This document shows positions 378 to 62,934 of a stretch of 62,934 bases of DNA, piece after piece (the stretch's first letter is position 1; each line of letters starts with the position of its first letter). The stretch is taken from positions 1 to 62,934 of IMG/VR virus record IMGVR_UViG_3300029309_000024. One strand, written 5' to 3'. The stretch comes from a virus. The notes under the pieces are model-generated. The model made no database searches. It was not told the origin of the DNA and saw only the letters and a program-made list of their open reading frames with translations. Made by a program: the position numbers and the translations under genes.

Positions 378-408
378 ATTATCCAAGTTTAATCGTTTTT
401 GTTACGTA
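378..408 (-). promoter_or_regulatory. 31-bp early promoter-like element, copy A
   Basis: Read on the minus strand it has ACGT, six bases, AACGA, nine bases, then GATAAT. It lies about 27 bases upstream of the start at 351 and overlaps the last codons of the 389-628 gene. This is the only copy that intrudes into coding sequence. Confidence 0.7.
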
Positions 409-628
409 TGATTTTGAAATGAAATTCATCAAAGTAGTCTTTGAAATCTTCCCCAGTATTATAATATTCCTCATACCATTTTTTGAGTTGGTTGTAAGTC
501 CCTTCAAATTCGACAACATCAGTATTTGTCATTTCATAATAGTCTGTAATTTTCAAACCAAAATTGTTAAATGTTATTAATATAGTGGAAATATCCATTA
601 TATCAAAAGTTATTTTAAATGTATCCAT
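389..628 (-). CDS. Small acidic unknown protein, 79 aa
   Basis: Begins MDTFKITFDIMDISTI and has an acidic, aromatic C-terminal half (WYEEYYNTGEDFKDYFDEF). A pattern of beta strand, TNTDVVEFEGTYNQL and helix suggests a small alpha/beta domain, but no family is recognised. It has a long upstream region (629-990) with two promoter-like elements and a hairpin, so it probably heads its own transcript. Its final codons overlap element A. Confidence 0.75.
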   Translation of the reverse strand: MDTFKITFDIMDISTILITFNNFGLKITDYYEMTNTDVVEFEGTYNQLKKWYEEYYNTGEDFKDYFDEFHFKIIRNKND

Positions 629-667
629 AAAAGTATGTTTTTTATTTGTTAGTTATTTTAATTGTAC

Positions 668-695
668 AGGTATAGACCAAGGTCTAAAAGTACCT
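668..695. other. Two-tier hairpin in the leader of the 389-628 gene
   Basis: AGGTA/TACCT (5 bp) flanks TAGACC/GGTCTA (6 bp) with a two-base AA loop and a four-base bulge at 687-690. On the minus strand it lies about 40 bases before the start at 628, as a leader hairpin. On the plus strand TTTTAT follows, so it could alternatively act as a weak plus-strand terminator. Confidence 0.5.
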
Positions 696-708
696 TTTAT
701 AAAAAAGA

Positions 709-752
709 TGACATTAGGTTATATAATATATATAAGTAATAATCTATTGTCA
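709..752. promoter_or_regulatory. Dyad flanking an AT core, copy 1 (operator/promoter candidate)
   Basis: Arms TGACATTAG and CTATTGTCA are complementary at 8 of 9 positions and flank TTATATAATATAT. A second version is found at 3203-3245 in the other large intergenic gap. The resemblance between the two gaps suggests a shared regulator or promoter. Direction is not determined. Confidence 0.5.
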
Positions 753-768
753 TACTTTTTACATTAAT

Positions 769-799
769 ATTATCCTTGTTCAATCGTATTTTCTACGTA
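769..799 (-). promoter_or_regulatory. 31-bp early promoter-like element, copy B
   Basis: On the minus strand: ACGT, N6, TACGA, N9, GATAAT. It is one of two tandem copies upstream of the 389-628 gene. The other, copy C, starts 68 bases further upstream. Confidence 0.75.
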
Positions 800-836
800 T
801 CTTTTTATTCCGAGCGAAGCGAGGGGGCCTAACTAT

Positions 837-867
837 ATTATCAGTAGTGATTCGTATTTCCTACGTT
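837..867 (-). promoter_or_regulatory. 31-bp early promoter-like element, copy C
   Basis: Same spacing as the other copies (ACGT, N6, TACGA, N9, GATAAT on the minus strand). Immediately upstream on the minus strand lie the tandem CTATACA repeats at 870-900. Confidence 0.75.
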
Positions 868-869
868 TT

Positions 870-900
870 GCTATACATGCTATACATATATACTATACAC
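870..900. repeat. Short tandem repeats of CTATACA
   Basis: GCTATACAT occurs twice back to back (870-878, 879-887), followed by ACTATACAC (892-900). The repeats sit beside promoter-like element C. The related string TGCTATACG precedes several other copies of the 31-bp element on the minus strand, so this may be an accessory protein site. Confidence 0.5.
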
Positions 901-990
901 GAAAGCCCATTCCCCCGTGACTACATCCCGCAATGCAGGACTGTTTCTGGGGTACTACGGGTTATCTTCCGCGAACTTAAAAACTAACTA
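901..990. other. GC-rich non-coding stretch
   Basis: About 85 bases visibly richer in G+C than the flanking AT-rich DNA. They lie between the C-element region and the 3' end of the 991-1545 gene. No convincing frame was found on either strand. It could be the leading part of an untranslated RNA or a protein-binding region. Confidence 0.4.
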
Positions 991-1545
991 TTATCCTTTA
1001 ATAGCTTCAACATATTTAGCTTTGGACCACCTGTATTTCTCAGGGACATTTATTCCACATGCCTCAAGGTATTCCCAGTTAAGCACGAAGCCATCAGTTT
1101 TTGTATTTGTTTCTTCAGTGAATATCTTTACATATTCATTTTTATAACCTACGTTTTTCGCAAGCATATCTGATATACTAGATTTGTAACCTATTATATC
1201 GTAGTTGGATTTATTAAATCCTATTAATACACCCTTCTTAATATCTTTAGCAAAGTTAGTTTTAGATTTAACTTCCTCTAAAGCAAGGGTCATATTGGTA
1301 TGCCAGTCCCAATCTGGGTCCCACGTAGATTCTTTATCTATTGTATTCCATATATTTTCAATACTTTTCCCGTCATAGTTTATGACTTGTAGTTCACCTC
1401 CGTAGGAGTCATCCCAACAGTTACATATCTTTTTGTTATCAAAGTATACATCCCATTCTTGAGAAGGTCCATCGTGTCCACGCATTGTTTTAATGTTTTT
1501 TGCAGTAGCGCGGTTGTAAAATTCATTTAATGTTATTTTATTCAT
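991..1545 (-). CDS. Unknown early protein, 184 aa
   Basis: The largest gene in this part of the early region. An aromatic stretch reads CNCWDDSYGGELQVINYDG at about residues 41-60, followed by WDPDWDWHTN. The C-terminal part looks like a basic helical segment (EKYRWSKAKYVEAIKG). No signal peptide or membrane segment is seen and no family is recognised. Promoter-like element D lies about 40 bases upstream of the start, which has the usual CAATAACTATG context. Confidence 0.75.
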   Translation of the reverse strand: MNKITLNEFYNRATAKNIKTMRGHDGPSQEWDVYFDNKKICNCWDDSYGGELQVINYDGKSIENIWNTIDKESTWDPDWDWHTNMTLALEEVKSKTNFAKDIKKGVLIGFNKSNYDIIGYKSSISDMLAKNVGYKNEYVKIFTEETNTKTDGFVLNWEYLEACGINVPEKYRWSKAKYVEAIKG

Positions 1546-1584
1546 AGTTATTGTTTTTAGTTATTATTATTATTATTCGTATAT

Positions 1585-1615
1585 ATTATCCGAGTACCCT
1601 CGTAGTTTTGACGTA
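1585..1615 (-). promoter_or_regulatory. 31-bp early promoter-like element, copy D
   Basis: ACGT, N6, TACGA, N9, GATAAT on the minus strand, preceded by TTTGCTAT. It lies 40 bases upstream of the start at 1545 and after the stop of the 1627-1773 gene. Confidence 0.75.
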
Positions 1616-1626
1616 TAGCAAAAATG

Positions 1627-1773
1627 TTATTTGTTCATTGCCGCTGTCAAAAGTAATTCAAAGTTGTGGTCAAGTATTTCATCAACCGCTTGTCTGAAGT
1701 CATCAGAGCTGATCGAGCCATCTCTGTACGCGTCTGCGTGGAATTGTATTTCATTTAATATTTCAGTTCTCAT
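1627..1773 (-). CDS. Small unknown protein, 48 aa
   Basis: MRTEILNEIQFHADAYRDGS followed by an acidic helical tail. SSDDFRQAVDEIL resembles one helix of a small helical bundle. The start at 1773 is only two bases after the stop of the upstream gene: the TAA of that gene is embedded in the AAATAACTATG start context. No known family. Confidence 0.7.
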   Translation of the reverse strand: MRTEILNEIQFHADAYRDGSISSDDFRQAVDEILDHNFELLLTAAMNK

Positions 1774-1775
1774 AG

Positions 1776-1901
1776 TTATTTAGTTTTAAGTTCACAATTA
1801 TAAATTTTATCTTCGAGTTCCATTATATATTCCACACCCCATTGTGTGTCTTGATATATAATTTCATATAATTCATCATATCTTTTTTTATTATATTCCA
1901 T
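1776..1901 (-). CDS. Small unknown protein, 41 aa
   Basis: MEYNKKRYDELYEIIYQDTQ... is a charged, Tyr-rich helical peptide. It starts at 1901 after AAAATAAATAACT, with promoter-like element E at 1927-1957. Translational coupling with the next gene (1773) is likely because the stop and start are two bases apart. Confidence 0.65.
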   Translation of the reverse strand: MEYNKKRYDELYEIIYQDTQWGVEYIMELEDKIYNCELKTK

Positions 1902-1926
1902 AGTTATTTATTTTAAGTTCATATAT

Positions 1927-1957
1927 ATTATCAATTTAAGTTCGTAGTTATGGCGTA
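1927..1957 (-). promoter_or_regulatory. 31-bp early promoter-like element, copy E
   Basis: ACGC (in place of ACGT), N6, TACGA, N9, GATAAT on the minus strand. It is preceded by TTTGCTAT as in copy D and lies 26 bases upstream of the start at 1901. Confidence 0.7.
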
Positions 1958-1966
1958 TAGCAAATT

Positions 1967-2143
1967 TTATTTAAAGTCAATTAGCGTTGGGCATTCGTCT
2001 TGAACCATACCCATTTCCCATACTACTTCCAGATGTTTTCTGTCTAAGTCGTACTTGCTTAGTATTTCATTTATACAATCGTCTTTTGATACACCCTGTG
2101 CCTGGCACTGGTCCATGTATTCTAAAAAGTATTCTATTATCAT
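1967..2143 (-). CDS. Small acidic unknown protein, 58 aa
   Basis: MIIEYFLEYMDQCQAQGVSK begins an acidic helical protein with three cysteines and the C-terminus DECPTLIDFK. No domain is recognised. The start context at 2143 is AAATAAATAACT. The stop lies seven bases before the next gene begins at 2150, on the upstream side, so the two form a tight unit. Confidence 0.7.
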   Translation of the reverse strand: MIIEYFLEYMDQCQAQGVSKDDCINEILSKYDLDRKHLEVVWEMGMVQDECPTLIDFK

Positions 2144-2149
2144 AGTTAT

Positions 2150-2353
2150 TTATTTATTTGTTACTTTATCGATCCACCATTGTGGTCTTGGTTTGTATGT
2201 TTGTTCATGTAGTTTTTGTAAATCTACGAGGTTGTTAGCTTCGTGCATGAGGTCTTTCTTGTAAAGTTCATGTAACGCCATGACAGACTTGCCAGGGTTT
2301 TCTTTCATTATTTTATAGAATCTGTTAAATTCTTTTTTAGATATTATTTTCAT
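2150..2353 (-). CDS. Small basic unknown protein, 67 aa
   Basis: MKIISKKEFNRFYKIMKENP... is a Lys-rich helical protein with two predicted helices and a PRPQWWIDKV C-terminus. No family is recognised. Promoter-like element F sits 23 bases upstream of the start at 2353. Confidence 0.7.
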   Translation of the reverse strand: MKIISKKEFNRFYKIMKENPGKSVMALHELYKKDLMHEANNLVDLQKLHEQTYKPRPQWWIDKVTNK

Positions 2354-2375
2354 AGTTATTAAGTTTTACATTTAT

Positions 2376-2406
2376 ATTATCATTAAGTCATCGTAGTAGT
2401 GACGTA
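2376..2406 (-). promoter_or_regulatory. 31-bp early promoter-like element, copy F
   Basis: ACGT, N6, TACGA, N9, GATAAT on the minus strand, preceded by TGCTAT. It fills the gap between the 2413-2607 and 2150-2353 genes. Confidence 0.75.
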
Positions 2407-2412
2407 TAGCAT

Positions 2413-2607
2413 TTACGCTTGTCTGAGTCCTTCCCACTTACAGTGCGAGTAATACTCCTTGTTACCGTGATACGTCCACAGCGCGTTTCGGCTGTAACTC
2501 GGTTTCGTACTGGATTTAATCTTATCCGTAGTTCCGAACGTGATACGTTTGTTAGTCCACGTGTTTTGTGTTTTTACTTTCTTTCGTAGTTTTTCTAGTT
2601 TAGTCAT
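2413..2607 (-). CDS. Small basic unknown protein, 64 aa
   Basis: MTKLEKLRKKVKTQNTWTNK is followed by a Ser/Thr/Lys-rich stretch and a C-terminus with Trp, His and Cys (SHCKWEGLRQA). The strong positive charge suggests nucleic acid binding, which is inference only. The start at 2607 is chosen over a longer frame that would run through the structured RNA element at 2629-2675. It is probably cotranscribed with the 2700-2924 gene. Confidence 0.65.
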   Translation of the reverse strand: MTKLEKLRKKVKTQNTWTNKRITFGTTDKIKSSTKPSYSRNALWTYHGNKEYYSHCKWEGLRQA

Positions 2608-2628
2608 AATAATTGTTTTTAAGATTAG

Positions 2629-2675
2629 AACGCGTGGCGGGAGTCGAACCCGCACCTTAGTACCGTAGCACGCGC
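2629..2675 (-). ncRNA. tRNA-like minihelix (acceptor stem plus T arm only)
   Basis: On the minus strand GCGCGTG (2669-2675) can pair with CACGCGT (2630-2636) over seven base pairs. The 3' strand is directly preceded by a standard T arm: GCGGG, loop TTCGACT, CCCGC (2637-2653). Only 15 bases separate the acceptor 5' strand from the T arm, so D and anticodon arms are missing. It lies between two small genes and may be a decayed tRNA or an RNase P/tRNA-enzyme target in the mRNA. Confidence 0.45.
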
Positions 2676-2699
2676 TGTTGTTCATGAACCGAACTTTAA

Positions 2700-2924
2700 T
2701 TAATCAACATAGTCAAAGTCAAATTCTTGTAAATAGTAGTCATTGTTTATTTTGACATAGTTAGGCAAGAATGATGTTGTTTGCCATTTGTTATTTAGTT
2801 TAAGTAAGCTTTGAGTTTTGTTACAAAGTTTAGTTAAGATTTCAAGGTTGATTATCTTTTTGTTATTAGATAAAGTTGAAATTATGTATTGATTTTTTGA
2901 TTTATTATATTTAATTTTTTGCAT
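2700..2924 (-). CDS. Small basic unknown protein, 74 aa; first gene of the leftward arm
   Basis: Asn/Lys/Ile-rich (MQKIKYNKSKNQYIISTLSN...), ending in an acidic, aromatic tail (YYLQEFDFDYVD). No family is recognised. It is the promoter-proximal gene of the minus arm, 27 bases downstream of promoter-like element G, so it should be among the first genes transcribed. Confidence 0.7.
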   Translation of the reverse strand: MQKIKYNKSKNQYIISTLSNNKKIINLEILTKLCNKTQSLLKLNNKWQTTSFLPNYVKINNDYYLQEFDFDYVD

Positions 2925-2950
2925 AATTATTAATTTTAAAGTTCATATAT

Positions 2951-2981
2951 ATTATCTAAATGAAGTCGTATTAAAGACGTA
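2951..2981 (-). promoter_or_regulatory. 31-bp early promoter-like element, copy G
   Basis: ACGT, N6, TACGA, N9, GATAAT on the minus strand, preceded by TGCTAT. It is the outermost copy, facing left from the divergent control region, and would drive the 2700-2924 gene. Confidence 0.75.
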
Positions 2982-3115
2982 TAGCATCCGGGATCCGGGA
3001 CCGGGATCACGCAACACGCAAACGCGAAACGAGCACACACCCCCAGGTAGTAGTCACACCGCACAGCTGTACACAGCAAAAGGCAAAAACTCCGGGCAAA
3101 AACACGCAAAACAGG

Positions 3116-3127
3116 GCCCCGTGGGGC
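3116..3127. other. GC hairpin
   Basis: GCCCC-GT-GGGGC is a perfect five-base-pair stem with a two-base loop, next to the terminator-like hairpin. The very small loop suggests a cruciform or protein-bound dyad rather than a classical terminator. Confidence 0.4.
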
Positions 3128-3202: not shown

Positions 3203-3245
3203 CGACATTAGCTTATATAATATATTAAATAGAGTTCTACTGTCA
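3203..3245. promoter_or_regulatory. Dyad flanking an AT core, copy 2; probable rightward promoter region
   Basis: CGACATTAG and CTACTGTCA flank TTATATAATATAT, resembling the copy at 709-752. In plus orientation the sequence reads TACGA, ten bases, TATAAT, which echoes the early element with one extra base of spacing. It lies about 55 bases upstream of the first plus-strand gene (3282). Confidence 0.5.
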
Positions 3246-3281
3246 TATTAAAAAAAAATTTTACGGCGTAATTAATATATT

Positions 3282-55036: not shown

Positions 55037-55780
55037 TTAAAGTGTTTTAGTTAAAAAAAATTGTGATGGATCAAAGCCATCTGTTTTAAAGAATAGTTCA
55101 TATGCTTCGGTAGCTCTAACAACTTTATCTCTACCTGATTCATAGAATTCATCCGAACAATCAAATATTCCTATCTGATGTGTTGTTTTATCCATTACGA
55201 TAAATAACATGTCATAACCGAACATCTCTTTATATATCCAAGCTTGACTGTCATAGTTGTATTTATATGCTGAATATTTAAATTTACTTATATCAGCACT
55301 TGTTTTGAGGTCTACTATAAGTTGCTCGTCCTCATTTATTATATCGGCTTTGCCTTTCCACATATTACCAAACAACCTTACTATCCCGGGTTGTTCGTAT
55401 TTGACACGTGCGCCTTTTCTTGAACCTTGTATATAATCCTTACATACATTATTCTTTAGCAACTTATCTCGCATTAAATTAATCTTATCAGCCTCGTGCT
55501 GTAATAAGCATAATTCACCATCGGAAATTTCCTTATACTTTTTTGTATTCCTTGTGCTAGATTCGATGATTTTATATTTATCAATCTTATCTGGTTCAAG
55601 TATACTTGTATGGAAATAACCACCAACTAAAAAGGCAGACGTCATTTGAGACGGTGCCTTAAAGCTTAATGGATCTTTTAATAATGCGGAAATATCTGAG
55701 TTACTTAAATACTGTTTACCAAATTTACCGTAGTAATGGTTATCGTCTTTAAGCTTCTCTAATACCTCTTCTTTTATCAT
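55037..55780 (-). CDS. PD-(D/E)XK exonuclease (recombination-associated)
   Basis: 247 residues. The core motif is WKGKADIINEDEQLIVDLKT (about residues 138-157), giving the Asp and Asp-x-Lys of the PD-(D/E)XK fold. LVGGYFHTSILEPDK upstream and SQAWIYKEMF downstream match RecB/Cas4-like and RecE-type phage exonucleases. It pairs with the adjacent ERF gene, an arrangement typical of exonuclease-annealase recombination modules. Confidence 0.85.
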   Translation of the reverse strand: MIKEEVLEKLKDDNHYYGKFGKQYLSNSDISALLKDPLSFKAPSQMTSAFLVGGYFHTSILEPDKIDKYKIIESSTRNTKKYKEISDGELCLLQHEADKINLMRDKLLKNNVCKDYIQGSRKGARVKYEQPGIVRLFGNMWKGKADIINEDEQLIVDLKTSADISKFKYSAYKYNYDSQAWIYKEMFGYDMLFIVMDKTTHQIGIFDCSDEFYESGRDKVVRATEAYELFFKTDGFDPSQFFLTKTL

Positions 55781-56349: not shown

Positions 56350-56673
56350 TTAATTACCAAGTCTATAGAATAACCAAACTTGTTGTGATCTTGGTTTTGT
56401 TATTACTAAAGTGGTATTCCCGATGTAGAATAAAAGATTATACTCATCTTCTACATCATCTCTAATTACTCTTAGCTCCCCGTCAACTAATTCTAGTTTG
56501 CCAGACGCTAATATGCCTTTTGTATTTCTCCTAGTGAATGTTTCGTTAGGTTGAATTATTAAAAGTTCTTGATCTAAGTTATACCAATTGCCGTATAATT
56601 CTTGCGGTATTGGTTCAGACTTTTGCGTATAGCAAAAGCTTGTCATTAATAAAAATAAAATTAATATTCTCAT
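56350..56673 (-). CDS. Exported small beta-barrel (lipocalin-like) protein, 107 aa
   Basis: A signal peptide (MRILILFLLMTSFCYTQKSE) precedes LYGNWYNLDQELLIIQPNET, the GxW motif that opens lipocalin-like barrels. The rest is beta-rich with no catalytic motif. An exported protein within a DNA-replication/sigma cluster is unusual, and it may modify the envelope, for example by excluding other phages. It overlaps the sigma gene by four bases. Confidence 0.55.
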   Translation of the reverse strand: MRILILFLLMTSFCYTQKSEPIPQELYGNWYNLDQELLIIQPNETFTRRNTKGILASGKLELVDGELRVIRDDVEDEYNLLFYIGNTTLVITKPRSQQVWLFYRLGN

Positions 56674-57425
56674 AAAAAATCTAATACTTGTGATTTATCT
56701 ACTGTTTGTATTAAAGTATCAATTGCGTCTCTTTTAATTTGCGAAACGCGAACGTAGTTGGCAGTGCCTTCTATGTTAAGTTTCTGTGCAATTTCTTTTG
56801 CACTCATTTTATCACAGTCAAGTCCGTAGCTCATACGTAGTACATCATATTCTCTATCTGATAGATTTGTTTTCATAAGCCCTAATAGATACGCGTTTAT
56901 TATATCTATATTATACTTTTCCGATTTATCTGGAATTTGCATAAGAGCATTGTCCTCTTCATTTTCATACTCAACATCTATACTAGAAAATATACTGTTA
57001 AAAAACATTTGTACTATCTTCTTGTCGCCACCATCTGATTTTCTAATTTCATTAAGCTTGTATTCAGGTATTCTCATATTACCTCGATTAATATCAATCT
57101 CTCTTCTTATTGCACCTCGAATACGTTTCGACAAAAATGATTTAAGTGTTTTTTCTGGGTGCTCAGATTCGTTTATAACATTCCAATCAATACGATCGAC
57201 TGCTAAGATTAAACCTTCCGCGCCAGACTGTAATAAATCATTAATACTTAGAACGCCGGAAGCTTGGTCTGAAGTAGAAAAAGAACGTGCTACGGACTCA
57301 ACTAGTGGTAAATTTTCAATTATTATTGTATCTCTCTCTGAGTATTTACCCTCAGAGGCTAAATTTAAACTGTCTTCTAAATCAAGTTTATACCTGATAT
57401 AGTTTTGGACGTTATATCTTTTCAT
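56670..57425 (-). CDS. Phage-encoded RNA polymerase sigma factor
   Basis: 251 residues with sigma-70 family regions. Region 2 is at about 36-110 (LPLVESVARSF, SINDLLQSGAEGLILAVDRI, FLSKRIRGAIRREID). A region-3-like segment reads RGNMRIPEYKLNEI. Region 4 lies at about 188-240 (NLSDREYDVLRMSYGLDCDK, then SAKEIAQKL and a recognition helix with RVSQIKRDAI). It should redirect host RNA polymerase to phage promoters. The target is unknown. The 31-bp elements or the late gene promoters are candidates. Confidence 0.9.
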   Translation of the reverse strand: MKRYNVQNYIRYKLDLEDSLNLASEGKYSERDTIIIENLPLVESVARSFSTSDQASGVLSINDLLQSGAEGLILAVDRIDWNVINESEHPEKTLKSFLSKRIRGAIRREIDINRGNMRIPEYKLNEIRKSDGGDKKIVQMFFNSIFSSIDVEYENEEDNALMQIPDKSEKYNIDIINAYLLGLMKTNLSDREYDVLRMSYGLDCDKMSAKEIAQKLNIEGTANYVRVSQIKRDAIDTLIQTVDKSQVLDFL

Positions 57426-58035
57426 TTAAAAGTTTTTTTTCTCTAACTAATCCATTACTTATATTCCTATAAATAGTTCTTGTAGAGACGTTTAAAATAG
57501 TTGCTATCTTTTTTATTGTAATTTTTTCTTTGTTATCGTTAATTGTTAACATAGCTTCGTATATATCTTCAGGTGTAGCTTTTTTCTGTTTACCAATTAA
57601 CTTACCTATTATTTGTTGTTTTTGTTTTGTACTTAATCCTGAATTATCTCTAAAAATAACTTTTCTTGGTTTATTCTTAGGTCTATCACTATCGAAATCG
57701 ATTAAGTTTATTTCCTCAATCATTTTATCAATAATATTTTTAGGACAATTGAAAGTTATATAACCCATTTTTTTGTTTGCTATAAACCTTGCAAGCGTAT
57801 CAAATTGTAAGTGTGTCATTTCTTGATTTAAATACCACAATACAATTAAGTGCCATTTCAAAGATTTATATGTAGTTATCTTAGCTTTACTGCGAAATAA
57901 AGCATAACATTCATGAGTTCCGTGTTCATAATACCATCCCCAATCGTACTGTTTTGTAGGTATATCATCAACAGGGTCACGTCTATATAGTATTCTATTG
58001 TCAATTAAATATTTCAAATTTCTTTCAAATATCAT
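57412..58035 (-). CDS. DNA-binding protein with C-terminal helix-turn-helix, 207 aa
   Basis: The C-terminus contains KITIKKIATILNVSTRTIYR, a resolvase-type helix-turn-helix. The N-terminal ~120 residues (YDWGWYYEHGTHECYALFRS, then LIVLWYLNQEMTHLQFDTLA) do not match a family I know. It overlaps the sigma gene by 14 bases. It could be a replication initiator or transcription regulator. Confidence 0.65.
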   Translation of the reverse strand: MIFERNLKYLIDNRILYRRDPVDDIPTKQYDWGWYYEHGTHECYALFRSKAKITTYKSLKWHLIVLWYLNQEMTHLQFDTLARFIANKKMGYITFNCPKNIIDKMIEEINLIDFDSDRPKNKPRKVIFRDNSGLSTKQKQQIIGKLIGKQKKATPEDIYEAMLTINDNKEKITIKKIATILNVSTRTIYRNISNGLVREKKLLNEKI

Positions 58036-58469: not shown

Positions 58470-58926
58470 TGCTTAATACTATTCTTTTTTTATCGTTAAT
58501 ATAATAATTCCAGTATGCTTTTGATGAATGGCCTTTAACTTTATATTCATCAGGCATACATTGTGGTGGTTGTGTGAAAGGTGTATTGTCAATATATAAA
58601 GGTGGCGTGTATAGCACGTCTCTACACTTTTCAATTGTTAGATGTGTTTTACCATATCTATTAGTATACTCATCACCCAACGCCATCATGTACTGATATG
58701 TCCAATTGTAATTATCTAGACCTGAACGCACCCATATAGTTGATGGGTGGTTTACATGCGCCTTCTTGTATGGAACATAACTAGTATCATAATCTCTTTC
58801 CTCTCCAATTACATGATGTGCGGTACAAAGCATTTGCGCAGCTTCTAAAGGCATTTTAACTACATGCCTATTGTAATGATACTGCGCAGCTTTAACTGGA
58901 TCTGGGTGTAAGTAAAATATATTCAT
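58432..58926 (-). CDS. Conserved-looking phage protein of unknown function, 164 aa
   Basis: MNIFYLHPDPVKAAQYHYNR, then HVVKMPLEAAQMLCTAHHVI and HVNHPSTIWVRSGLDNYNW. His-rich with a fixed-looking N-terminus. Proteins starting MNIF.LDxDPxxAAxxHxDKHVVKM are common in phages, usually without an assigned activity. Some have been annotated as nuclease- or glycosylase-related, which I cannot confirm here. Confidence 0.7.
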   Translation of the reverse strand: MNIFYLHPDPVKAAQYHYNRHVVKMPLEAAQMLCTAHHVIGEERDYDTSYVPYKKAHVNHPSTIWVRSGLDNYNWTYQYMMALGDEYTNRYGKTHLTIEKCRDVLYTPPLYIDNTPFTQPPQCMPDEYKVKGHSSKAYWNYYINDKKRIVLSNELPYLQAPSFI

Positions 58927-59075
58927 TAGTGGTTAATTATTTTAAACTCTTTATTAGTTGATAACATCCATGTTTTTTCTGAATGTTTATCAACATGATT
59001 CATAACTTCTTGTTGGCTTGATACATTATGTATATGTATGTGACCAGTTGTAAAATTTAATATTGTTAATTTCAT
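58926..59075 (-). CDS. Small unknown protein, 49 aa
   Basis: MKLTILNFTTGHIHIHNVSS, then QQEVMNHVDKHSEKTWMLST and KEFKIINH. This resembles a short beta-hairpin followed by a helix. The stop overlaps the start of the next gene. Promoter-like element H lies seven bases upstream of the start. Confidence 0.6.
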   Translation of the reverse strand: MKLTILNFTTGHIHIHNVSSQQEVMNHVDKHSEKTWMLSTNKEFKIINH

Positions 59076-59081
59076 ATTGTA

Positions 59082-59112
59082 ATTATCTATATTAATTCGT
59101 GTTTGCTACGTG
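59082..59112 (-). promoter_or_regulatory. 31-bp early promoter-like element, copy H
   Basis: ACGT, N6, CACGA, N9, GATAAT on the minus strand. The element is closer to its start codon (59075) than in other copies, leaving almost no leader if transcription starts just past GATAAT. Confidence 0.65.
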
Positions 59113-59202
59113 TTATTCAAAAAATATTTTAATATATAATAAAATAAGTGTTATTAACATAGCGTAAGCAAAATAATCCATAAATTCCCAATCTTCAAAC
59201 AT
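59113..59202 (-). CDS. Single-pass membrane peptide, 29 aa
   Basis: MFEDWEFMDYFAYAMLITLI continues with LLYIKIFFE. A short acidic N-terminus is followed by one membrane helix. It is too small for family assignment. Its start lies six bases before the end of the upstream gene at 59208. Confidence 0.5.
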   Translation of the reverse strand: MFEDWEFMDYFAYAMLITLILLYIKIFFE

Positions 59203-59207
59203 AATAA

Positions 59208-59438
59208 TTAATCTGCTACTGTTAATCTACAATCACATTCATTCATTTGAGAATATAGTGCATTGCATTCATCTTCAAGCATTTGGATATGTTCCTCCAT
59301 TGCTTTGATTCTTTCTTGTTGAAATGTTACGAGTGATTCCATACTGTAATTATTAGTGCTATTAGTATTATCATCATAATTATATGTATTAATAATAAGA
59401 TCGCCATTAGTTGTAATTTTAAATTTCGGGGTAATCAA
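59208..59438 (-). CDS. Coiled-coil protein, 76 aa
   Basis: An N-terminal beta part (KFKITTNGDLIINTYNYDDN) is followed by a heptad-rich helix (LVTFQQERIKAMEEHIQMLE) and a C-terminal Cys pair (NECDCRLTVAD). It overlaps the upstream gene by 20 bases. Unknown role. Confidence 0.6.
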   Translation of the reverse strand: MITPKFKITTNGDLIINTYNYDDNTNSTNNYSMESLVTFQQERIKAMEEHIQMLEDECNALYSQMNECDCRLTVAD

Positions 59439-59604
59439 TTGTTTGTATTTTTAGTTTACCTTTATTATTCTTTTCGCTATAGTATATAGCTGTAATAAGA
59501 TTTCCATACTGTTTAAGTAATTCAATCTGTTTATCTGTAAAGTCAAAGTCAACATTAAAGTTGCCAGTACCTTCTCTTCCGTTTGTATTTAAAAACATCA
59601 TCAT
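59419..59604 (-). CDS. Small unknown protein, 61 aa
   Basis: MMMFLNTNGREGTGNFNVDF, then KQIELLKQYGNLITAIYYSE. The start at 59604, one base after the previous stop, is preferred to a longer frame that overlaps it. Mixed alpha/beta. No family. Confidence 0.6.
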   Translation of the reverse strand: MMMFLNTNGREGTGNFNVDFDFTDKQIELLKQYGNLITAIYYSEKNNKGKLKIQTIDYPEI

Positions 59605-59605
59605 A

Positions 59606-59731
59606 TTATTCTGGTTTAAAGTATTTATGCCATTTATCAATTATAGGCTCATCAGTACTATAATCAATATAAAAAATGTAATCGTCTATTTCAACGTACA
59701 TTACATGTTCACATTTAACATCTATTTTCAT
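59606..59731 (-). CDS. Small acidic protein, 41 aa
   Basis: MKIDVKCEHVMYVEIDDYIF followed by YIDYSTDEPIIDKWHKYFKP. Acidic and Tyr/Ile-rich. It is the first gene downstream of the tRNA on the same strand, 14 bases after it. Confidence 0.6.
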   Translation of the reverse strand: MKIDVKCEHVMYVEIDDYIFYIDYSTDEPIIDKWHKYFKPE

Positions 59732-59745
59732 AATTTATAATTTAG

Positions 59746-59819
59746 TTGCGACGGTCAGATTCGAACTGACGACCTCTAGGTTATGAGCCTAGCGAGATTC
59801 CTAACTTCTCCACGTCGCT
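59746..59819 (-). tRNA. tRNA-Met (CAU), initiator-type
   Basis: A complete 74-base cloverleaf. The acceptor stem pairs positions 2-7 with 66-71, with an A-A mismatch at 1-72. The D stem is GAGA/TCTC, the anticodon stem CTAGG/CCTAG with loop CTCATAA, and the T stem GTCAG/CTGAC with loop TTCGAAT. The mismatch at 1-72 and the A11-U24 pair are hallmarks of bacterial initiator tRNA. Two of the three usual G-C pairs of the anticodon stem are present (the third is A-U). The CCA end is not encoded. An elongator Met or lysidine-Ile tRNA is less likely. Confidence 0.85.
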
Positions 59820-59939
59820 ATAGGTTTAAGGAACAGAACCCCATCAGTATCTGAATTACGTTGGTCAGTACAATTGACTGTTATCCTTGGGAGCCAACAA
59901 CCTAAGGACTGCCTATTGGTCTTACGCCCTAATATTATA
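59820..59939 (-). other. Non-coding stretch between hairpin RNA and tRNA
   Basis: About 120 bases without a convincing gene. Several short inverted repeats can be found (for example CAGT...ACTG and GTTGG...CCAAC), but no single structure stands out. It is probably part of the same leftward transcript as the tRNA. Confidence 0.4.
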
Positions 59940-60017
59940 GAGCAGGATGAGGGTGATTCTGGCATTACCTTTTTATTGCACCGTTTTGTAATCAAACCGC
60001 CAGACAAAATCCTGCTC
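59940..60017 (-). ncRNA. Nested-hairpin RNA candidate
   Basis: Three nested helices: GAGCAGGAT/ATCCTGCTC (9 bp, 59940-59948 with 60009-60017), TCTGGC/GCCAGA (6 bp, 59958-59963 with 59999-60004) and ATTAC/GTAAT (5 bp, 59964-59968 with 59988-59992). All pairs are perfect. It is not a cloverleaf and has no T arm. It lies between the KTSC gene and the initiator-type tRNA. The minus strand is assigned because the surrounding genes run that way. Confidence 0.5.
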
Positions 60018-60034
60018 ATAACTAAAATAAATAA

Positions 60035-60253
60035 CTAACCTAATTGAAAGTTATTCTTTATATGCTTGTTAAAGAATTTACCGATCGAATAACTGTTTCT
60101 CATTTTTTGAAACAATCTTACAGGTACATTCTGATATAAATAGTTATCATCGTTTTGAAACTTAACTACTAAGCTTCTTTGTTTTCTAAAGTATCTCATA
60201 GACTGTATTGCTGTTGAGTCTACAGATAAGGTTTCATAATTTACTTTTCTCAT
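60035..60253 (-). CDS. KTSC-domain protein, 72 aa
   Basis: MRKVNYETLSVDSTAIQSMR, then KQRSLVVKFQNDDNYLYQNV and PVRLFQKMRNSYSIGKFFNK. This follows the KTSC domain (S..I....Y.....L.V.F..G..Y.Y..VP...F..L..A.S.G.YF...I). The domain occurs as stand-alone phage proteins and at the C-terminus of some lysyl-tRNA synthetases. RNA binding is possible. Its neighbours are a tRNA and an RNA candidate. Confidence 0.8.
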   Translation of the reverse strand: MRKVNYETLSVDSTAIQSMRYFRKQRSLVVKFQNDDNYLYQNVPVRLFQKMRNSYSIGKFFNKHIKNNFQLG

Positions 60254-60276
60254 ATTTATTTATTTTAATTTATTAT

Positions 60277-60307
60277 ATTATCGTTCTAGCGTCGTATTTG
60301 TTACGTA
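60277..60307 (-). promoter_or_regulatory. 31-bp early promoter-like element, copy I
   Basis: ACGT, N6, TACGA, N9, GATAAT on the minus strand, 24 bases upstream of the KTSC start. It would also serve the hairpin RNA, the initiator tRNA and the genes behind them. Confidence 0.75.
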
Positions 60308-60561
60308 CCACTTGTCGCGTCTTTTCTAAAATCATCATTCAATCTCATGTATTCACCGATTTCTTGACGCTTTTGTAAAATCCAATCTTCTTGGTTTTTA
60401 AACTTTCTAATTATTTCCATAGCTTCAATTAATGAGTCTACAGTTTTAGATTCACTTCCGAATATAGTTATATGTCTTACAACAAATAAACCAGCTTCTT
60501 TAGGGTGACGTTTAACATACCAGTTATCGCCATTCATTTCTGTGCCTTCTATTTTTTCCAT
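60301..60561 (-). CDS. Small unknown protein, 86 aa
   Basis: MEKIEGTEMNGDNWYVKRHP..., with VVRHITIFGSESKTVDSLIE and a helical C-terminus. Its last codons overlap promoter-like element I by a few bases. The start overlaps the preceding gene by 13 bases. Short phage proteins with the 'WYVxRH..G..F.V' type are often hypothetical. Confidence 0.6.
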   Translation of the reverse strand: MEKIEGTEMNGDNWYVKRHPKEAGLFVVRHITIFGSESKTVDSLIEAMEIIRKFKNQEDWILQKRQEIGEYMRLNDDFRKDATSGT

Positions 60562-60932
60562 AGCTTTTGTAATTTTTCGTTCGTTATTTTATATATAGAT
60601 TCAATATTTTGATCGGTGTGTATAGCAAGCTCAAGTGCCCATTCACACGCTTGAAACCAATCTTTAGGTTTCTCCTCATAGTATTCATGCTCCTCAAATA
60701 TATCAAAGTTTAAATTATCTACAACTTCTTTTGCAGTATCTAAAAATATACTTTGGTCAGTTATCCATTGTTCAATTAATTGTGAAACAAAATCTTCCTC
60801 CACAATAAATTCATCAACGACTTCCCCCGCTACACCTTCCTCATATTCAAGAACAAGTGTATCAGTAACTGATTCAATCATTAAATCAGAATACTCAGCT
60901 TGCCAATATCTGTATTTAGCATTATCCATCAT
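60549..60932 (-). CDS. Acidic unknown protein, 127 aa
   Basis: Starting at 60932 (MMDNAKYRYWQAEYSDLMIE). Glu/Asp-rich with long helices (VDEFIVEEDFVSQLIEQWIT) and WFQACEWALELAIHTDQNIE. It overlaps neighbours on both sides. The high negative charge could mimic DNA, as anti-restriction proteins do, but there is no direct evidence for this. Confidence 0.65.
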   Translation of the reverse strand: MMDNAKYRYWQAEYSDLMIESVTDTLVLEYEEGVAGEVVDEFIVEEDFVSQLIEQWITDQSIFLDTAKEVVDNLNFDIFEEHEYYEEKPKDWFQACEWALELAIHTDQNIESIYKITNEKLQKLWKK

Positions 60933-61203
60933 AATTATCAAATCTATTATAATCTATTAAGTCTTTTAATATTTGCACATTAGATTTTTCTTTACTAGAT
61001 ACGACTTCGGTATCTTCAGTTTCGATCGAATGCAAATAAGCTTGTTCATACTTATCTGGATTATCAACGAACAAAGATATAATATCTAATGTATCTTCCT
61101 CATCAAGAGTACTAAAACCAAATTCAGATTTTAGTTCGTTTGCCATATGGTCTAATATACCTTCAAGCAATTTATTATCGTATTGTTGTGAATATTTAGT
61201 CAT
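60922..61203 (-). CDS. Acidic unknown protein, 93 aa
   Basis: MTKYSQQYDNKLLEGILDHM, then DEEDTLDIISLFVDNPDKYE and a Ser/Glu-rich middle. Acidic and helical. The start at 61203 has the standard AAATAACTATG context. No family. Confidence 0.6.
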   Translation of the reverse strand: MTKYSQQYDNKLLEGILDHMANELKSEFGFSTLDEEDTLDIISLFVDNPDKYEQAYLHSIETEDTEVVSSKEKSNVQILKDLIDYNRFDNYDG

Positions 61204-61214
61204 AGTTATTTATT

Positions 61215-61403
61215 TTAAAATGTTCTTAATTCTTTTAATTGGTCAAGTATTAAATGGTATACTTTATTAACATAATCGTCATATAATTCATCAGTTAGTT
61301 GAATGTTTTGCGATTCAATATGGAAATCTATAATATCTAATATAGATACATCTACAGATTCTAATACTGTATTAACAGATTCTTGTAATTGTTCTTTTGT
61401 CAT
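61215..61403 (-). CDS. Small acidic helical protein, 62 aa
   Basis: MTKEQLQESVNTVLESVDVS, then DIIDFHIESQNIQLTDELYD. A helical acidic protein that resembles its neighbours (for example 61629-61829) in composition but not in clear sequence. Twelve bases separate it from the next gene. Confidence 0.6.
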   Translation of the reverse strand: MTKEQLQESVNTVLESVDVSILDIIDFHIESQNIQLTDELYDDYVNKVYHLILDQLKELRTF

Positions 61404-61421
61404 AATTATTTATTTTAGTTA

Positions 61422-61571
61422 TTAATTTAATTTAGTCCAACAATTTAGTTTTCTATATTGTTTTACTTCTGATTTTAATGTTTGAATAAAGAAGATTAAA
61501 TCTTTTTTGTCATAATCTTTTAAATCTACTTTATTAGGTATTTTGATTTCATTGTTATATACTAATTGCAT
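61422..61571 (-). CDS. Small basic protein, 49 aa
   Basis: MQLVYNNEIKIPNKVDLKDY, then KKDLIFFIQTLKSEVKQYRK. Basic and helical. The start context is AAATAACTTATG, one base different from the others. Promoter-like element J lies 27 bases upstream. Confidence 0.6.
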   Translation of the reverse strand: MQLVYNNEIKIPNKVDLKDYDKKDLIFFIQTLKSEVKQYRKLNCWTKLN

Positions 61572-61597
61572 AAGTTATTTATTTAAGTTACGCAATT

Positions 61598-61628
61598 ATT
61601 ATCAATCAATCGTCGTATTTCCGACGTA
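61598..61628 (-). promoter_or_regulatory. 31-bp early promoter-like element, copy J
   Basis: ACGT, N6, TACGA, N9, GATAAT on the minus strand, in the gap before the 61422-61571 gene. It abuts the 3' end of the 61629-61829 gene. Confidence 0.75.
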
Positions 61629-61829
61629 CTAATCTTTATAATATCCTAATTGGTATTTACATAAAATCTCATCACCGATTCTTTGAATGTGTTTTTCAAT
61701 AGCAGAGTCGATTAAGGTATGTATAGCATTTTGTACCGGACCTGAATAGTCTCTGTATTCATCAACGGTATATTCAGTTAAGTATGTACCAATTGTTTCA
61801 ATTTCCATTAATAGCATTTCTTTATCCAT
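61629..61829 (-). CDS. Small acidic helical protein, 66 aa
   Basis: MDKEMLLMEIETIGTYLTEY, then GPVQNAIHTLIDSAIEKHIQ and LCKYQLGYYKD. A helical protein of unknown role. It overlaps the upstream gene by eight bases. Confidence 0.6.
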   Translation of the reverse strand: MDKEMLLMEIETIGTYLTEYTVDEYRDYSGPVQNAIHTLIDSAIEKHIQRIGDEILCKYQLGYYKD

Positions 61830-62016
61830 TGTATTTCATATTTAATATTTCTGTATCTTTACCAACCATCCATTCAACGTTAGATGGTTTAAATTCATTA
61901 TCGTATAGAAAATCCTCATAATCTTCTGAGTTCCATAGTTCGTCCCATATAGGTACAGTCTTCATATCTATTTGGTATACGTTACTGTCTTCAAAGTTTA
62001 AAATTGTTAGTATCAT
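61822..62016 (-). CDS. Small acidic protein, 64 aa
   Basis: MILTILNFEDSNVYQIDMKT, then WNSEDYEDFLYDNEFKPSNV. Short beta hairpin and acidic loops. The opening MxLTILNF is shared with the 58926-59075 protein (MKLTILNF), which hints at a small family within the genome. Four-base overlap with the upstream gene. Confidence 0.6.
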   Translation of the reverse strand: MILTILNFEDSNVYQIDMKTVPIWDELWNSEDYEDFLYDNEFKPSNVEWMVGKDTEILNMKYNG

Positions 62017-62594
62017 AGTATTTTATTATTTAATTTAGTCATTGTTCTATTATTTAATTGATGATGACCATAAGTTATAAAATGTTCCTCATCAAAATCA
62101 TATTTATCACCATTAAAATTAGGGTGATATATCAAATCTTGTTTACCAATAGGGTACATTGTATTTGGTCCCCACTCTTTAATGTTGTAAGCAATACATT
62201 CTTGTTCGAGTTCCATACATAGTATAGTTAACTTATCTTGAAGTATAGCTCTGGCTTCATGATTCATATAAGGTTCGTCCCACATTGGTTCTTTTGTTTC
62301 AGTTTCAATAACTCTATAATCAATACCACCATAGAATGTAAAAGATATATAAAATGATTTTTCTTTCATACCTTCATACATACCATTATATTCAAACATA
62401 GATTTAATTATGTCTCCACTTCCACCATCAAACCTTTTTACAATTGTTTGTCTAACAGTGTTGAGGTCATGAGTGTTGTAATATCCGTGACCTTTTCTGG
62501 TCGTGGATTTATTCCATTTACCCATGTTTCTTTTTGAACCGATATTTAATTCAACGGTCCAATGTTTGTGTGTTTCTTTTTTTTGTTTTGTCAT
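62013..62594 (-). CDS. Unknown early protein, 193 aa
   Basis: The largest gene of the right-end early cluster. HWTVELNIGSKRNMGKWNKS is a beta-rich start, followed by FDGGSGDIIKSMFEYNGMYE and a helical, aromatic C-terminal half. It resembles stand-alone phage early proteins with no known function. Start at 62594 has the AAAATGAATAACTATG context, and promoter-like element K lies 18 bases upstream. Confidence 0.7.
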   Translation of the reverse strand: MTKQKKETHKHWTVELNIGSKRNMGKWNKSTTRKGHGYYNTHDLNTVRQTIVKRFDGGSGDIIKSMFEYNGMYEGMKEKSFYISFTFYGGIDYRVIETETKEPMWDEPYMNHEARAILQDKLTILCMELEQECIAYNIKEWGPNTMYPIGKQDLIYHPNFNGDKYDFDEEHFITYGHHQLNNRTMTKLNNKIL

Positions 62595-62611
62595 AGTTAT
62601 TCATTTTAGTT

Positions 62612-62642
62612 ATTATCAATCTATTGTCGTATTTAATACGTT
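62612..62642 (-). promoter_or_regulatory. 31-bp early promoter-like element, copy K
   Basis: ACGT, N6, TACGA, N9, GATAAT on the minus strand. The ACGT end overlaps the last codons of the 62633-62779 gene by ten bases. It drives the 62013-62594 gene. Confidence 0.75.
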
Positions 62643-62779: not shown

Positions 62780-62934
62780 TATATTTCGTTTAAGTCTTTT
62801 TTAGTTATATAGTCTTCTACTTGTTCCATAAGGTCTATAGCCTCATTTTTACTATTAGTCATATCCATTAATCTGGACATGATTACACTCATAGGATTAT
62901 AATCATATAACCTATAAAAGTATTCTAATTCTCC
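62779..62934 (-). CDS. Small unknown protein, 5' end cut by window edge (same gene as at 1-175)
   Basis: 51 codons and a stop at 62779-62781. The missing start is provided by the left-end copy. Protein differs from the left copy only at EAID versus ESIE. It shows that the minus-strand early operon continues across the junction. Confidence 0.8.
   Translation of the reverse strand, partial: GELEYFYRLYDYNPMSVIMSRLMDMTNSKNEAIDLMEQVEDYITKKDLNEI
62781..62934. repeat. Terminal near-identical repeat, right copy
   Basis: Corresponds to positions 1-154 with six mismatches. The reading frame is preserved in both, so the redundancy reflects the same locus. Merging the ends gives a unit of about 62,780 bases. 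Confidence 0.9.

Follow-up and report, generated by a model that had tools for sequence, protein, structure and literature searches.

The window analysed here is a 62.9-kb phage record from IMG/VR (IMGVR_UViG_3300029309_000024; 62,934 nt), in which a pattern scan of both strands detected 11 exact copies of the repeated element ACG-N8-ACGA-N9-GATAAT. All copies lie on the minus strand and are confined to positions 378-2980 and 59082-62641, and no exact match was present on the plus strand. Giving sites by their low ends, the left cluster comprises 378, 769, 837, 1585, 1927, 2376 and 2951, exactly as listed in an earlier sequence-only reading of this region (hereafter, the original prediction), and four further copies (59082, 60277, 61598 and 62612) make up the right cluster. 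The window ends (1-154 and 62781-62934) overlap by 154 bp with 96% identity; the genome in this record is therefore circular or circularly permuted, with some strain variation, and the two clusters join across its ends into an uninterrupted early region. This region belongs to a single minus-strand unit that begins at 2980, crosses the 1/62934 junction and extends to about 46912. On the plus strand, from about 3282, lie the structural genes (terminase, portal and a muzzle-like protein), without any copy of the motif. The copies and the two genes discussed with them are listed below, with predicted transcription start sites (TSS) and the open reading frame (ORF) that follows each copy; HTH stands for helix-turn-helix.

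378..407, minus strand: putative promoter copy, with ACGT at -36, ACGA at -25 and GATAAT at -12 to -7; predicted TSS 371; ATG of ORF 187-351 26 nt after GATAAT.
769..798, minus strand: putative promoter copy and second member of a tandem pair; predicted TSS 762; ATG of ORF 389-628 140 nt after GATAAT.
837..866, minus strand: putative promoter copy and first member of that pair; predicted TSS 830; ATG 208 nt after GATAAT; the predicted transcript start includes TAGTTAGGC, kept in four relatives.
1585..1614, minus strand: putative promoter copy; predicted TSS 1578; ATG of ORF 991-1545 39 nt after GATAAT.
1927..1956, minus strand: putative promoter copy, ACGC variant; predicted TSS 1920; ATG of ORF 1776-1901 25 nt after GATAAT.
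2376..2405, minus strand: putative promoter copy; predicted TSS 2369; ATG of ORF 2150-2353 22 nt after GATAAT.
2951..2980, minus strand: putative promoter copy, heading the minus-strand unit; predicted TSS 2944; ATG of ORF 2700-2924 26 nt after GATAAT.
59082..59111, minus strand: putative promoter copy; predicted TSS 59075, at the A that opens the start codon of ORF 58926-59075, whose message would be leaderless; closest promoter upstream of the HTH and sigma genes.
60277..60306, minus strand: putative promoter copy; predicted TSS 60270; ATG of ORF 60035-60253 23 nt after GATAAT.
61598..61627, minus strand: putative promoter copy; predicted TSS 61591; ATG of ORF 61422-61571 26 nt after GATAAT.
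62612..62641, minus strand: putative promoter copy; predicted TSS 62605; ATG of ORF 62013-62594 17 nt after GATAAT.
55380..55409, minus strand: weak twelfth copy, ACGTGTCAAATACGA-N9-GATAGT, within the exonuclease ORF 55037-55780.
56670-57425, minus strand: sigma70-family factor of 251 aa with regions 2 and 4, the proposed promoter reader.
57412-58035, minus strand: HTH protein of 207 aa with a C-terminal HTH, overlapping the sigma start; the proposed co-factor.

The motif core spans 30 bp, or 31 bp with one flanking base, and the columns ACG, A at offset 8, ACGA and GATAAT were invariant over the 11 copies, with preferences in the flanking columns. No exact match arose in 100 Markov-1 simulated windows. 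Scored with a position weight matrix, the 11 sites reached 33.1-41.7 bits (19.8-36.7 on leave-one-out), compared with 12.7 bits for the next-best site (55380), 2.5 for the plus-strand maximum and 17.4 for the maximum over 100 simulations. An unsupervised dyad count of the window also placed ACGA-N9-GATAAT and ACGT-N20-GATAAT at the top of its list. With GATAAT taken as the -10 element, ACGT falls at -36 and ACGA at -25. Two details of the original prediction had to be adjusted: the ACGT form holds for 10 of the 11 copies, but copy 1927 begins with ACGC, and the distance from GATAAT to the start codon, given as 20-40 bases upstream for nearly all copies, is 17-39 nt for eight of them, 6 nt for copy 59082, and 140 and 208 nt for the tandem pair 769/837. 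With regard to the weak copy at 55380, its counterpart reads GATAAT in two relatives (G003 and G031), where the protein sequence is conserved too, and its function is therefore uncertain.

The assignment of the 56670-57425 product to the sigma70 family was backed by PHROG (PHROG 351, E 1.8e-18), by Pfam (sigma region 4, 1.7e-5; region 2, 3.7e-4) and by its predicted fold, for which the top listed PDB matches were sigma subunits in transcription complexes. Against cultured phages, only weak, general sigma matches were obtained, while a search of viral contigs recovered 30 related sigma loci with 44-90% identity. The HTH gene adjoined the sigma gene in every relative where both were recovered, and this constant adjacency makes the HTH protein a likely partner of the sigma factor. 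The HTH protein itself matched one viral model (A0A516MIB4, E 4e-10); its best match among PDB folds had an E value of only 0.49, and no match was found in cultured phage records.

About 180 promoter sites were collected from 28 records, with identical spacing and on the sigma-coding strand. The shorter pattern ACG-N10-GATAAT was matched in 25 of 32 records, three others (G022, G025 and G028) carried variants, and none of six sister phages had it. In whole relative records its matches fell nearly all on one strand, usually 3-14 per record, compared with 0-4 for the reversed-pattern control, and no antisense match was found in the fetched stretches of relatives. By terminase and portal, the window is related to phages that infect Flavobacterium, Cellulophaga, Tenacibaculum and Maribacter, and to MW202828; the six sister phages, which share a related terminase and/or portal (Elemovirus, Callevirus phi38:1, Baltivirus phi13:2, Gundelvirus, Maribacter phage Panino and MW202828), had neither a detectable sigma factor nor such a promoter family. 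Across about 28 records the architecture accompanies the sigma factor, and both are missing from these six phages. Since the promoter signals are present in most sigma-bearing relatives and absent from those six, the virus probably steers the host polymerase with a code of its own, in support of the phage-specific reader suggested at the outset. Among sigma-bearing contigs binned into metagenome-assembled genomes, one assigned to Sphingobacteriales (L109) showed the family well and several others had single sites. A few collected sites, such as the GTTGACGGGGAGC match in G003 and G031, resemble coding coincidences. Among single pattern matches in unrelated viral contigs, about 10 share one near-identical context (aagcctgtACGTATCAAATACGA...), which was read as a coding coincidence, and these were set aside.

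The distance from box 1 to the -10 element, start to start, was 24 bp in every genome with sites, while the upstream box differed by clade (TACGT, TTACAA, ACAGAC or TATACGA). The consensus was aTACGTaacAAATACGA-N9-GATAAT in the clade of the window and TTACAAacTAAA(C/T)ACGA-N8-GGATAATATA in most relatives. CAGA accompanied TACGA in G016; ACAGAC accompanied TATAAT in G022, with the second box weakly kept; G025 combined gCACAA with CACGA and TATATT; and G028 had the upstream box TATACGA alone, before TGATAAT. The -10 hexamer stayed near TATAAT throughout, being GATAAT in all 11 copies and most relatives, TATAAT in G022 and TATATT in G025. By these alignments, the ACG repeated 11 bp apart is the local form of a wider two-box architecture: the predicted repeat is real in the clade of the window, but most relatives have TTACAA...ACGA and G028 only the upstream box. 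Variation of box 1 and of the -10 element between clades at unchanged spacing is what would be expected for a phage-specific reader, and these variants offer a ready set for learning how sigma factors and promoters change together.

The position of the -10 element was also reflected in the gap between GATAAT and the ATG that opens the next ORF of 35 codons or more. These gaps peaked at 22-27 nt and showed a spike at exactly 6 nt: 23 of 183 sites had this gap, whereas gaps of 5 and 7 nt did not occur. Some of the 23 sites are homologous between near relatives and thus do not count as separate events. Among GATAATs outside the motif, a 6-nt gap occurred in 5 of 436 cases. The spike fits leaderless mRNAs that would start 7 nt after GATAAT, with the A of the ATG as +1, and this phase marks GATAAT as a true -10 element. 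The start 7 nt after the -10, as deduced from the ATG phase at these 23 sites, yields exact TSS predictions for the leaderless genes; sigma promoters of phages 7-11 and phiEco32 start 6-9 bp from their element (PMC8948821).

The original prediction had also held that the motif is not the usual Bacteroidetes promoter. The promoter classes described in Flavobacterium psychrophilum, with six sigma motifs, include TAnnTTTG variants, sigma54, TAnnTTGY and an ECF CGT class (PMC9723704), and the phage motif fits none of the known flavobacterial sigma motifs, the ECF CGT box included. No TTG-N17-23-TAnnTTTG was found upstream of early genes in the window, and the family set held only 3 noncoding host-type matches on the early strand, as against 11 in antisense orientation. 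A scan for E. coli-type sigma70 promoters showed no excess over shuffles (23 compared with 19.5). No repeated late-promoter motif was evident when the listed plus-strand upstream sequences were read by eye.

From the motif, its spacing, its strand bias, its co-occurrence with the sigma and HTH genes and the leaderless phase, all of which are read from sequence, we infer with a probability of roughly three in four that the repeat is a sigma-type promoter family for prereplicative (early or middle) genes, read by the host core RNA polymerase together with the phage sigma factor (56670-57425). The label 'early' is drawn from position and gene type, and the timing it implies is thus presumptive. 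In this promoter, GATAAT would be the -10 element (-12 to -7), with transcription beginning 7 nt downstream. The upstream box, which reads TACGT in the window and TTACAA in most relatives and lies at about -38 to -33, would serve as a -35-like element recognised by sigma region 4. Between these two, the middle box AAATACGA (-29 to -22) would be a third element, to which the neighbouring HTH protein may bind. A box at -25 lies outside the usual sigma contacts, which suggests either a second protein or an unusual sigma contact. As the sigma and HTH genes lie downstream of the same promoters, including copy 59082, the circuit is probably self-reinforcing.

Several observations weigh against this interpretation. 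In the alignments, the region 4.2 helix of the sigma factor was nearly invariant between clades with different box 1 sequences, so that the reading of box 1 by the sigma factor is tentative. The close sigma relatives G025 (L089) and G026 (L080) have a near-identical region 2.4, yet their -10 elements read TATATT and GATAAT, respectively, at the same spacing; this pair amounts to a natural experiment in promoter evolution. The near-identical lineage G020/G021 (L028, L029) encodes both sigma and HTH proteins and has no detectable ACG/GATAAT family, and none was detected in fragments such as G027. Finally, the circuit would need a primer if the sigma factor is required, and no such starting promoter was identified. 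Inspection of the alignments by eye for sigma or HTH residues covarying with box type gave nothing decisive.

A second conserved cis element was observed in the same regions. It is an imperfect inverted repeat, TGTGACRATAGCC-N~20-GGCTAATGTCRCA, of about 46 bp, present in the window at 714-755 and 3207-3246. The copy at 3207-3246 heads the early unit of the window, and 10 of 15 head regions fetched from relatives have the element too (L111, L113-L121); in many relatives it also precedes the HTH gene and overlaps its start codon (L012-L014, L016-L018, L020, L023, L024, L027, L030-L032, L035). This dyad is a candidate for priming or feedback. A further scheme, which we put forward only tentatively and regard as doubtful, is that sigma and HTH proteins form a two-protein specificity factor which reads the three-element promoter and takes over early transcription without any host-type promoter, either by entering with the virion or by starting from the conserved dyad at the head of the early unit and before the HTH and sigma genes.

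The division of labour between the two proteins could also be different: the HTH protein might bind the direct-repeat boxes and substitute for the -35 element, in the manner of class II activators such as PhoB or MotA, while a host or phage sigma factor would read the -10 only. In pho-box promoters an 11-bp repeat lies upstream of the -10. Here, too, the two boxes are 11 bp apart and 9 bp upstream of the -10, and the HTH gene is co-conserved with the sigma gene. However, the direct repeat is not general, given the TTACAA...ACGA arrangement of most relatives, the weak second box of G022 and the lone upstream box of G028; moreover, the different, conserved dyad that overlaps the HTH start codon in many relatives may be the HTH protein's own site. 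We consider this arrangement unlikely.

Reading by host sigmaA or an alternative host sigma factor at the onset of infection, with the phage sigma serving another, late class, appears quite improbable. In its favour, the sites stand in front of operons that look early, a position in which many phages rely on host promoters; these operons showed no other host-type promoter; and the genes under the phage sigmas of phiEco32 and 7-11 are middle or late ones (PMC8948821). However, the motif is unlike all six flavobacterial sigma motifs (PMC9723704), sigma-less relatives infecting flavobacteria also lack it, and it varies between phage clades while its spacing remains constant. Neither was another repeated class found for the phage sigma to serve, late upstream regions having only been listed and read by eye.

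That the repeats are operators of a phage repressor merely lying near promoters, as their short, multi-copy form close to gene starts would allow, is very hard to reconcile with the fixed spacing to the -10 hexamer, the TSS-phased leaderless ATGs, the single orientation and the lack of a symmetric site. Equally hard to credit is the reading that an RNA polymerase encoded by the phage or packaged in its virion (N4 or crAss-like) uses these sites as early promoters: the related phages are podoviruses and two proteins of more than 2100 aa lie among the structural genes, but no DxDGD or T7-like polymerase motif set was found in the large proteins, the two largest had no Pfam polymerase match, no PHROG polymerase match appeared among the proteins searched, the largest matches muzzle/structural families, and a sigma factor implies use of the host core.

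Other features were recorded in and around the early region. The window (837/769) and G001, G004-G006, G008, G015, G016 and G018 each have two putative promoters in tandem, 68-79 bp apart, close to where the early unit begins, and in five genomes the first transcript of the pair would begin near the conserved TAGTTAGGC. A structured leader RNA between 837 and 769 was considered and rejected, its stability being no greater than that of shuffles. The octamer TGCTATAC/GTATAGCA occurs just upstream of many promoters in several genomes (window 869, 878, 1613, 1955, 2404 and 2979) and was rarer in reversed-sequence controls. At 2629-2675 (minus strand) there is a tRNA-like hairpin with a perfect T-arm (GCGGGTTCGACTCCCGC) on an acceptor-like stem and no room for D and anticodon arms; the T-arm sequence recurs in relatives (L009 403-419, L064 5091-5107). 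Positions 2985-3125, in the interval that separates the first early promoter from the first late gene, form an unusually G+C-rich, noncoding-looking block in an AT-rich genome. The sigma-less MW202828 (L075/L076) has a repeated palindrome of its own, GTGTCGTTAACGACACA, about 10 times in its early region.

We found no published description of the present promoter and sigma system in the open-access literature searched, which is weak evidence of absence. The system is spread over about 28 uncultured phages, the closest cultured relatives of which infect flavobacteria, and it could be a source of promoters independent of the unusual Bacteroidota transcription machinery. It would resemble the sigma regulons of phiEco32 (gp36) and 7-11 (gp47) in combining a phage sigma with the host core on a repeated, phage-specific, non-host promoter (PMC8948821, PMC4331800); the TSS predicted here falls within their range of 6-9 bp after a -10-like element, and in both the promoter sequence differs between related phages. 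In those regulons, middle and late genes are controlled from 6-8 sites whose element is single or bipartite, whereas the window has 11 sites on early-positioned genes, a third box at -25 and an adjoining HTH protein; the experimentally studied phage sigmas that we found (phiEco32 and 7-11) act on middle or late genes, whereas the present set apparently lies on early ones. Bacteroidetes primary sigma promoters (TTG at -33 and TAnnTTTG at -7) are the likely host background, with which the window shares A-rich leaders without a Shine-Dalgarno sequence, but the -10 of the phage family (GATAAT, TATAAT or TATATT at -12 to -7) is closer to the general sigma70 -10 than to TAnnTTTG. As in PhoB/pho-box and T4 MotA class II activation, the 11-bp repeat of the window's clade ends about 9-10 bp upstream of the -10; unlike there, the repeat is not conserved in the family, and no PhoB or MotA homologue was found. 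Phage sigma regulons as such are already known; what sets this putative one apart is the three-element promoter, the paired HTH protein, the early placement and the spread of the system in uncultured phages related to flavobacterial phages.

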